DNA of 64,000 nucleotides, taken from Shouchella hunanensis. Lineage in GTDB: Bacteria > Bacillota > Bacilli > Bacillales > Bacillaceae_D. Under the pieces are notes generated by a model. It was given only the letters and a program-made list of their open reading frames with translations, had not been told where the DNA came from and ran no database searches. Shown here piece after piece: positions 38,236 through 62,536 of this stretch. The position numbers and the translations under genes were made by a program. Every line of letters begins with the position of its first letter. Positions within the stretch are counted from its first letter, which is position 1. Location: contig NZ_CP117834.1 of assembly GCF_028735875.1 (NCBI RefSeq), positions 2,406,001 to 2,470,000 on the forward strand, in the 5' to 3' direction.

Positions 38236-38254
38236 ACCGCGTGCTTTCTTTTTA
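38221..38254. terminator. Bidirectional terminator, malR-like gene and spoIIP
   Basis: GAAAGCACGC and GCGTGCTTTC form a perfect 10-bp stem followed by TTTTT on the plus strand, and a TTTT run on the minus strand. It overlaps the end of the regulator gene and reaches the spoIIP stop. Confidence 0.9.
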
Positions 38255-39349
38255 TTCATCCATTGTCTCTTTGTAATAATCAGCTAACAGATCTGCTACA
38301 GCGTCTGCGCTTCGCAAGCTTTCTTCCATTGTATTATCAACCCCACCAAATTCAATCAGCATAGCAGTGTTTGCTAAGTCTTGATTGTAAATACCATTCC
38401 CCTGTGATTTGTCCTTTGTAAATACACCACGACTTAAGCCGGGATAGGCTTCTTCAATCCGGTTATGAAGTTCTGTTGCGGCAGCTAATTGAGCATCTGA
38501 ATTCGCGTGTGCGGTACCGACAACAAAAAGAATGCGTGCGAACGTTTCATTGTTAATAGTCACCGCTGTAAGATCACGACGTGCAGAATCACGGTGAAAA
38601 TCGAGCAGTAAATCATATTGCTGTGTCTCTAGTTTGCCTTCGATTATCTGACGAGAAGCCGAATAATAATTGGTCATACTGCGCTCTTGCATATAGGCAT
38701 TCATATTGGTTTTGTCTACATCAGCAACAATTCCATGGGTGGAGAGCCTGTCCGCAAAGTGCTTCCCAACGTTAATGATGTTTATTTCAGGGTTACTTGA
38801 AATGGCTTGGTCTGCATTTTCAGCACCTTCTAATCCTAATTCAGGCAGAAAGGACTCATAGCTGTGCGTATGATAGATTAACACAGACGGATCGGTATTC
38901 TCAGATTCTTGCCCAGGCGATTCTTCGTTTTCTTCATTTGTATGTTCTTTGGCAAGTTCTGCTAATGCTTCTTCAGGGGGCAGTGTTTCTCTTGGCATAT
39001 TGGTCACATCTGTCCCTTGTCCAGCAACGGCGATGGTTGTATCAAATGCCGCCATAGCTGGAATTCCTTGCGAGAGCAATGAAAGAGGGTGACTGAAGTC
39101 TAGGTTTGTTGCGGTAGATACCATAACATGGCTGAACGATTTTGCTTTAAATTCAGAAGGCAGTGCTTCTTTGAAGATGGGATTTTCAAGTGAAATCAAA
39201 TGGAGTAAATCAACGCCCTCTAAAGGCGATACAATCGTATTCAGTCCACGGTTATACCAGGTTTGATTTGTTGCTAGTATGCTAATAATAAGAAGTGTGG
39301 ATAGAAGCATAATAGAAATACTTCCTAACCATTTAACGACTACGTTCAC
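38252..39349 (-). CDS. spoIIP: Stage II sporulation protein P (SpoIIP)
   Basis: A cell-wall amidase/endopeptidase that works with SpoIID and SpoIIM to thin septal peptidoglycan during engulfment. The 365-residue protein has an N-terminal membrane anchor (about residues 6-26), a linker, and the SpoIIP domain. Catalytic residues are visible: His160/His162 in YHTHSYE, His252 in DFHRDS and Glu333 in IEFGGVDNT. It starts at GTG 39349 after AAGGTGA. A CATAGAGT at 39374-39381 (minus) loosely resembles a sigma-E -10 box. The usual neighbour gpr is absent, so it may be a second copy. Confidence 0.92.
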   Translation of the reverse strand: MNVVVKWLGSISIMLLSTLLIISILATNQTWYNRGLNTIVSPLEGVDLLHLISLENPIFKEALPSEFKAKSFSHVMVSTATNLDFSHPLSLLSQGIPAMAAFDTTIAVAGQGTDVTNMPRETLPPEEALAELAKEHTNEENEESPGQESENTDPSVLIYHTHSYESFLPELGLEGAENADQAISSNPEINIINVGKHFADRLSTHGIVADVDKTNMNAYMQERSMTNYYSASRQIIEGKLETQQYDLLLDFHRDSARRDLTAVTINNETFARILFVVGTAHANSDAQLAAATELHNRIEEAYPGLSRGVFTKDKSQGNGIYNQDLANTAMLIEFGGVDNTMEESLRSADAVADLLADYYKETMDE

Positions 39350-39510
39350 AACACAATCACCTTCCTCTACTCTACTCTATGAAACTAACAATTAAATTAG
39401 CACTAGGAATTAAAAAGGTAAGAGCAAAGGAAAATTTTTATTGCAATCCTGTTACGTAGCGCCTAGTATAAGACGTATCTTTCAACGTGAACGAGAATGA
39501 GGAGTCCATT

Positions 39511-61294: not shown

Positions 61295-61323
61295 ACATAT
61301 TATGAACATTCCTTTCATAGAAT
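61295..61323 (+). promoter_or_regulatory. Candidate sigma-E (sporulation) promoter
   Basis: ACATATT, 14 bases, then CATAGAAT resembles the B. subtilis sigma-E consensus (KMATATW, N13-15, CATACAHT), with one mismatch in each box. It lies 35 bases before the SpoIIP-like gene start. Confidence 0.5.
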
Positions 61324-61358
61324 ACTGACACAGCACTTTTTTGCAAGGGGGACGAGTT

Positions 61359-61787
61359 GTGCACAAATGGTTGATAACGAGTCTGTTAATTATGCCTTTG
61401 TTTTTAGGCGGAGAACGTGAACCTGGAGACAGCATAGAAGTAGATTGGACAAGCTCTATATTAGAAGTAGATTATCGAGTAGGAGAAGAACAGTTATCAA
61501 AAGCGTACTCTACTTTGGCTACGAAAGAAGGTAGCCAAGCGAGAATCCTTATTGAGATTGATACGGCTTCTGCGTATGGTGAAGAATTGCTTTTGTTGGC
61601 AGAAGAACTCCACTTGGAACTGGAAGAAATGGAACCCGGTTTAAGTCGAGGGATTATCGCTAAAGCCGATTCATCTCTACAGCAACGTCATGTGAAATTG
61701 AATATTGGGGGCGTTGATAACACAAGTGAAGAATTAGAGAACTCGTTGTCATTAGTGAAAGAACTAATCGATCAGCTCGAACAGTAG
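61359..61787 (+). CDS. Truncated SpoIIP-like protein lacking catalytic residues
   Basis: A 142-residue protein with an N-terminal signal or anchor segment (WLITSLLIMPLFLGG). Its C-terminal half aligns with SpoIIP at 38252: ARIL and ELH blocks, then EPGLSRGI versus YPGLSRGV, and NIGGVDNTSEE versus EFGGVDNTMEE. The HTH motif and the DFHRD histidine are absent, and the catalytic Glu is replaced by Asn. It cannot be an active hydrolase by the SpoIIP mechanism. The GTG at 61359 has AAGGGGG at seven to eight bases. A sigma-E-like promoter precedes it. Confidence 0.78.
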   Translation: MHKWLITSLLIMPLFLGGEREPGDSIEVDWTSSILEVDYRVGEEQLSKAYSTLATKEGSQARILIEIDTASAYGEELLLLAEELHLELEEMEPGLSRGIIAKADSSLQQRHVKLNIGGVDNTSEELENSLSLVKELIDQLEQ

Positions 61788-61819
61788 GCGTTTGTCCGTT
61801 TAGCGACAAGCGTTTTTTT
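61788..61819 (+). terminator. Terminator of the SpoIIP-like gene
   Basis: CGTTTGTC and GACAAGCG form an 8-bp stem (one G-U pair) followed by seven T, directly after the stop codon. Confidence 0.85.
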
Positions 61820-61918: not shown

Positions 61919-62536
61919 ATGGAACCGAAATGGTTGTTATGGGCGAAACAAATCCAAGGGATTGCACAATCAGGAAGAGCTTTTTCAAAGGATCCGTTCG
62001 ATCAAGAACGATACAATGAATTACTTGATTTAAGTGCAGACATTCTAGCTACTTATGGAGATGTAGATACAGAGGTGGTTAAGGCGTTATTTGCTAAAGA
62101 ATCGGGTTATCAGACCCCAAAAGTGGATGTTCGTGGCGTTATCTTTCAACATGGAAAAATCTTGTTAGTGCGTGAAAAAGCAGAACAAAAGTGGTCATTA
62201 CCTGGAGGTTTTTGTGATGTGGGACTGTCGGCAAAGGAAAATGTCGAGAAAGAGATTTTTGAAGAAGCAGGGTTTCGTACGAAGGCAAGCAAGCTTTTAG
62301 CGCTTTATGATATGCAAAAGCATGGACATCCTCCCCAGCCCTTTCACTATTATAAAGTGTTCTTACAATGCGACATTATGAACGGAACTGCTTCAAGAGG
62401 TCTTGAAACCGATCAAGTGATGTTTTTTTCTAAGAGCGAGTTGCCTGAACTATCAACGAATCGGAATACAGAAGAACAGATTTTGTCTATGTTTGCTTTT
62501 ATGAATGAGCCAAATCAACCTCCGTATTTTGATTAA
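61919..62536 (+). CDS. Nudix hydrolase with Nudix_N domain
   Basis: A 205-residue protein. Residues 1-60 form the helical Nudix_N domain (WLLWAKQIQGIAQSG), found in ADP-ribose pyrophosphatase-like hydrolases; the Nudix fold begins at VDVRGVIF. The Nudix box GGFCDVGLSAKENVEKEIFE departs from the consensus: Leu replaces the first Glu and Lys the Arg, while the metal-binding EIFEEAG part is intact. It likely hydrolyses a nucleoside diphosphate derivative. GAGGTG precedes the ATG. Confidence 0.87.
   Translation: MEPKWLLWAKQIQGIAQSGRAFSKDPFDQERYNELLDLSADILATYGDVDTEVVKALFAKESGYQTPKVDVRGVIFQHGKILLVREKAEQKWSLPGGFCDVGLSAKENVEKEIFEEAGFRTKASKLLALYDMQKHGHPPQPFHYYKVFLQCDIMNGTASRGLETDQVMFFSKSELPELSTNRNTEEQILSMFAFMNEPNQPPYFD

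Follow-up and report, generated by a model that had tools for sequence, protein, structure and literature searches.

A short gene near the end of the window, the 64,000-nucleotide stretch of the Shouchella hunanensis contig NZ_CP117834.1 that was analysed here, codes for a protein of 142 residues. The first-pass annotation had described it as a truncated, catalytically dead paralogue of SpoIIP with its own expression signals. Its GTG start was backed by the orthologues, whose N-termini align with it as M[HNYD]K, and the good ribosome-binding site and the terminator that had been ascribed to it were both found (Table 1). Terminator-like sites in the region around the gene numbered 4, as compared to 1.5 expected from shuffled sequence.

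Table 1. Positions in the window of the short gene, its signals, its neighbours and the full-length spoIIP gene
Feature	Position	Strand	Basis
-35-like element ATATT of the SigE-like promoter	61297..61301	+	ATA 16 bases ahead of CATAGAAT, 7 of 11 orthologues
-10-like element CATAGAATA	61316..61324	+	9-mer unchanged among 7 of 11 orthologues
Ribosome-binding site AAGGGGGA	61345..61352	+	6 bases ahead of GTG
Short SpoIIP paralogue gene, TAG stop at 61785-61787	61359-61787	+	
Apolar N-terminus KWLITSLLIMPLFLGG, putative signal peptide or short anchor	61365..61412	+	hydropathy
C-terminal half-domain of SpoIIP, lacking catalytic histidines and NGxYNQD loop	61473..61784	+	alignment; Pfam stretch is residues 58-137
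Intrinsic-terminator-like hairpin with T-run	61786..61815	+	stem search
NUDIX hydrolase gene, next downstream	61919..62536	+	Pfam Nudix_N, NUDIX (window gene only)
Gene of an M23 peptidase-domain protein, 292 residues	62647-63525	+	
Full-length SpoIIP, 365 residues, catalytic paralogue	38252..39349	-	PF07454 match
spoIIP -10-like element CATAGAGTA, of the type found at the short gene	39373..39381	-	upstream comparison

The protein begins with a short apolar stretch, the best 15-residue mean hydropathy of which was 1.86 in the window protein and 2.69 in the anchor of SpoIIP itself. Measured in six short forms, the apolar run covered 9-15 residues, as compared to 21 in SpoIIP. This N-terminus suggests that the short protein may be exported.

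A NUDIX gene was found near and downstream of the short gene in seven of the eleven orthologous loci (G000, G060, G003, G005, G009, G006 and G001), separated from it by one acetyltransferase-like gene in two of the seven. The gene order was judged by eye from the protein sequences, and the Pfam check of the NUDIX assignment covered the window gene. In G010, G011, G004 and G008 the short gene lies in a different neighbourhood. The M23 peptidase-domain protein encoded further downstream in the window had, by eye, no evident signal sequence, and its DUF3887-like N-terminus scored below the cut-off; S. miscanthi, S. oshimensis and G005 encode similar proteins in the vicinity of their short gene.

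Relation to SpoIIP and loss of catalytic residues

Residues 58-137 of the short protein matched positions 185-268 of the 269 positions of the SpoIIP family PF07454 with 32.2 bits (E = 1.1e-7), above the gathering cut-off of 24.4 bits. This score rules out a chance similarity of motifs and confirms the assignment as a SpoIIP paralogue. PF07454 had two matches in the genome, the short form and the full-length SpoIIP of the same window. With the NCBIfam SpoIIP model TIGR02867 (cut-off 123.15) the short protein obtained 27.3 bits, far below the cut-off, and the full SpoIIP 191.1 bits, above it. A sequence search of the PDB gave no match for the short protein and only chance-level matches (dynein, a hydroxymethyltransferase) for the full one.

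What the short form shares with SpoIIP is the C-terminal half, with PGLSRG, GGxxN and the Glu that follows, as well as the predicted order of strands and helices therein, both models being of low confidence. It is smaller (142 versus 365 residues), has a short and apolar N-terminus and is devoid of the HTH tract, the histidine of DFHRD, the loop NGxYNQD and the glutamate of LIE.

These losses were followed by comparing the 11 short forms with the C-terminal region in 34 full SpoIIPs. Rows of at least 330 residues were taken as full SpoIIP; L050, L075 and the lipoprotein-like and sigma-linked forms described below were left out. All 11 short forms had lost H252 and R253 of DFHRD, G278, the loop residues G319, N322, Q323 and D324, and E333. 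H252, R253, the four loop residues and E333 are invariant in all 34 full SpoIIPs. Kept in all 11 were A271, R272, A291, L294, H295 and P303-G308 (PGLSRG), and also G335, G336, N339 and E343. The HTH tract, which holds a catalytic histidine (H142 in C. difficile), was absent from every short form, and the histidine of DxHRD (H222 in C. difficile) was present in 34/34 full SpoIIPs versus 0/11 short forms; in the window protein, RVGEE is aligned to DFHRD. According to PMC6221140, H142 and H222 are required for activity and sporulation in C. difficile. Since the equivalents of both are missing, hydrolysis by the known SpoIIP mechanism appears very unlikely for the short form. The loss of the two histidines, first read from the window protein, was borne out, and the orthologues share it: all 11 are without the HTH tract, the histidine of DFHRD, the NQD loop and the glutamate of LIE.

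The glutamate is a more complicated case. It had been proposed that the window protein has Asn in place of the catalytic Glu. This is right for the LIE column, where Asn115 stands at the position at which 34/34 full SpoIIPs carry E333; Asn was also found in S. miscanthi, and Thr, Tyr, His or Val elsewhere. By analogy with Amidase_3, the LIE glutamate would presumably be the catalytic one. The review PMC6934232, however, writes the motif of the essential Glu (E309 in C. difficile) as GgxxNxxxE, the Glu of which (E343) is E125 in the window protein and is retained in 11/11 short forms. The catalytic role is therefore disputed between E333, which was lost, and E343/E125, which was kept, and the retention of this second candidate counts against a reading of the short form as a pseudo-amidase.

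Predicted structure and possible ligands

The model of the short form, built from an alignment of four sequences, had a pLDDT of 53.8 and predicted the order strand-helix-strand-strand-helix for residues 63-141. In VIA-align the five best chains for this model came from two peptidoglycan amidases, Rv3717 and Ami1 (Z 5.0-5.8). LytH, AmiC2, AmiP and AmiB followed at Z 4.0-4.6, with unrelated tautomerases at 4.9 and 4.8 in between. Foldseek returned nothing for the model at E <= 0.001. The amidase matches agree with the sequence, at weak values. Rv3717, Ami1, LytH and AmiC2 (Z 4.6-5.8), which we take to be Amidase_3 amidases except where the entry title states it, were the best structural matches of this low-confidence model; as compared to them, the short form is half a fold with the histidines gone.

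The model of the full SpoIIP domain (pLDDT 44.9) was too poor to map the kept residues. According to it, the HTH strand as well as the next strand and helices would lie in the region missing from the short form. In a sheet of this kind the missing strands would form one edge, so that the rest of the domain could fold alone.

A pseudo-enzyme built in this way might bind peptidoglycan: it would hold stem peptides or denuded glycan and mark or shield the septal wall, leaving SpoIID, SpoIIM and SpoIIP untouched. It is in line with this idea that the domain meets peptidoglycan in SpoIIP, that the scaffold is Amidase_3-like, if weakly supported, and that part of the conserved core is kept. The parts expected to hold the substrate, namely the DFHRD strand, the NGxYNQD loop and the LIE glutamate, were however lost in 11/11 short forms, and we consider such a role unlikely; the binding of denuded glycan that had been suggested earlier gained no independent support. 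As these parts were lost and the scaffold was kept, a protein partner is somewhat favoured over glycan.

Distribution, selection and descent

The closest named records were S. miscanthi AK13 (99%) and S. oshimensis DSM 18940 (87%). The short form was present in 11 of the 13 Shouchella genomes examined and full SpoIIP in all 13. It is dispensable, since G002 and G007 have SpoIIP without it. Genome G001 has two full SpoIIP genes (L040 15705-16823 and L056 1785-2891) besides the short form; in the L056 protein, Gln replaces the last Glu of GGxxNxxxE.

An order-wide search of 249 genomes with the short-form profile, restricted to E <= 1e-14 with weaker matches excluded, gave no short frame outside the genus among the matches listed, and no further member of the short-form clade was seen in a survey of 41 genomes of the family. 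This survey also listed short frames from G021, G026, G027, G030, G033, G034 and G064. Those inspected, a part of them, were fragments with catalytic-type sequence or a lipoprotein-like form; the frame of G034 has an internal stop. A separate short SpoIIP relative of 180 residues occurs in another genus of the family (L046 4982-5524, + strand; L045 5280-5822, - strand). It carries a lipobox-like LSGC or LTGC, has lost HTH, HRD and the LIE glutamate and has kept PG[IV][PS]RG and GG[PA]ENT. A literature search by title and abstract opening, with most subscription journals outside its coverage, found no paper on a protein like the short form; the 'truncated SpoIIP' of PMC6934232 is a processed isoform in C. 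difficile.

The ratio dN/dS of the short gene was below 1 in every computable pair. NG86 and YN00 gave 0.14 and 0.21 for window-G003, 0.21 and 0.15 for G009-G006, 0.24 and 0.30 for G010-G011, 0.32 and 0.56 for G010-G008 and 0.33 and 0.50 for G011-G008, i.e. a range of 0.14-0.33 by NG86 and 0.15-0.56 by YN00. The NG86 value of 0.28 for the window and S. miscanthi rests on one residue change. The genes of G011 and G004 differ by two residue changes and zero synonymous ones, and pairs with G005 were saturated. For spoIIP, the pairs compared ranged over 0.03-0.14 (NG86) and 0.04-0.16 (YN00). By comparison of the two genes, the short form is under purifying selection, which is weaker than that on spoIIP.

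These data bear on the possibility that the gene is a functionless, slowly decaying remnant of a SpoIIP-type gene. It is truncated, it is missing from 2 of 13 genomes and selection on it is relaxed with respect to spoIIP; the YN00 values of 0.50-0.56 in two close pairs also count against our preferred reading. On the other hand, the frame was intact in 11/11 genomes over identities to the window protein from 99% down to about 31%, 21 columns were invariant among the 10 short forms aligned, NG86 ratios did not exceed 0.33 and the promoter was kept in seven genomes. We regard a remnant as quite improbable. The earlier view of a working gene and not debris agrees with the occurrence of the short form in 11/13 genomes of the genus, with its forming one clade and with the dN/dS values; from the sequences, debris is unlikely.

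All 11 short forms fell on one side of a branch with support of 98/95 in a tree of 59 rows and 100/100 in a tree of 55 rows. Identical segments, rows whose profile match was too short and two anchorless rows that represent one gene of G026 (L031 and L076) were excluded from the 59-row tree; the 55-row tree left out L045, L046, L051 and L083 for their long branches. In the latter tree (106 columns) the nearest relatives of the short forms were SpoIIP-domain proteins (97/90), seven of which, or their kin, are encoded beside ECF-type sigma genes. An alternative tree with the short forms joined to Shouchella's own SpoIIP was not rejected (p-AU 0.367), and there are long branches that meet. The short form may thus have originated with the ECF-linked proteins, as favoured by the tree, or from the genus's own spoIIP, which was not rejected.

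The sigma-linked proteins come from related Bacillota. An ECF-type sigma gene overlaps or abuts the gene of the SpoIIP-domain protein at L068 (1281-2703), L069 (671-2099), L070 (3345-4760), L072 (1893-3303), L073 (1228-2633), L074 (2061-3476) and L051 (4030-5279). Among 10 such loci inspected, Pfam recognized both the sigma and the SpoIIP domain in 7, the others being L067, L078 and L083. Unlike the short form, these proteins have about 50 residues ahead of a membrane span, which is followed by the SpoIIP domain, and the eight compared keep the HRD histidine. Their SpoIIP domain may serve as the external portion of an anti-sigma factor. Both histidines were lost in L051 and its relative L083. 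The NGxYNQDL loop is deleted in three histidine-less groups, which form separate clades in the tree: the short forms (window, L005-L013 and L034), L045/L046 and L051/L083.

Promoter and expression

Upstream of 7 of the 11 short genes we found ATA followed after 16 bases by CATAGAATA, with the -10-like octamer ending 28-35 bases before the start. These are the same seven genes that lie near a NUDIX gene. The 120 bases upstream were only 41-52% identical between the window and G009, G001 and G005, and the 9-mer was nevertheless identical; Markov resampling of the 120-base upstreams, applied to 8 of the 11, produced it in at most 0.2% of cases. The exact promoter pattern taken alone is weak, because it occurs at 4 sites in the organism's own genome, against 2 for a backwards control. 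The SigE-like promoter proposed for the window gene holds up as a site conserved in 7/11 genomes amid diverged surroundings; it does not extend to G010, G011, G004 and G008, where such a site was absent upstream of the short gene. In these four (L041-L044), two other conserved blocks, AGTATGT and TGTCCAAACTAGGAATACACG, lie 14 bases apart and occupy the place that the SigE-like site has in the other lineages.

The window's own spoIIP has a -10-like element and no ATA at the -35 position. CATAGA[GT]TA was found in 7 of the 12 spoIIP upstreams examined, in four of these seven with ATA at the same spacing; for G010 the first start codon of the frame was taken as the spoIIP start, so that its upstream may be misplaced. 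In 6 of 9 spoIID upstreams, CATAG stood 43-51 bases ahead of the profile match. According to PMC517825, SigE is the activator of spoIIP, spoIID and spoIIM in B. subtilis. SigE control is likely for the seven short genes that carry the promoter-like site.

When the consensus letters of SigE and SigK promoters are considered, CATAGAATA also fits the -10 of SigK, CATAnnnTA, which would allow for late mother-cell expression. The short protein might then be a mother-cell sporulation protein with a task outside engulfment, for example in the spore envelope, and its relation to SpoIIP mere history; the neighbour in 7/11 loci is indeed a NUDIX gene and no engulfment gene. This has little probability in our view, as the -35-like ATA at its fixed spacing fits SigE better than it fits the AC of SigK, and the spoIIP of the window has the same type of -10 element.

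Proposed role in engulfment

The reading that we prefer, with a probability of roughly 0.45, is that of a conserved pseudo-amidase which tunes engulfment by binding. A SpoIIP-type ancestor would have been reduced to its C-terminal scaffold of strands and helices; gone with the N-terminal half would be the HTH site, the histidine of DFHRD, the loop NGxYNQD and the glutamate of LIE. The gene would probably be transcribed in the mother cell by SigE, alongside spoIIP and spoIID, in 7 of the 11 genomes, and the apolar N-terminus would take the protein to the outside of the mother-cell membrane, the site of engulfment. Its action there would most likely consist in binding and not in cutting: the kept face, made up of PGLSRG, GGxxN and the last helix, may sit against SpoIID, SpoIIM or SpoIIP itself, and amidase action at the septum might thereby be limited or steadied.

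All 13 genomes of the genus had SpoIIM and SpoIIQ above the cut-off, with an interrupted SpoIIM frame in the 86% complete draft G006, and SpoIID was present in the 9 genomes searched for it. The short form is for this reason an addition to a complete machine. A bolder version of our reading, which we hold to be possible but doubtful, is that a SigE-made pseudo-SpoIIP takes the place of SpoIIP in the engulfment complex and is devoted to braking or pacing the cutting of the wall. To our knowledge, no such subunit of the engulfment machine is known from B. subtilis or C. difficile. Degenerate hydrolase domains do act as regulators elsewhere: EnvC and NlpD are LytM activators of Amidase_3 amidases. 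The LytM domain of SpoIIQ is degenerate in most Bacilli, according to PMC6934232. By analogy with these proteins, a dead wall-hydrolase domain may steer a machine, although LytM domains belong to a fold family different from that of the short form.

How the SpoIIP amidase is restricted to the septum and the leading edge is, as far as we know, not settled. A genus that retains a probably dead C-terminal half of SpoIIP, expressed in most of its members apparently by the sigma factor of SpoIIP itself, would offer a natural separation of binding from cutting.
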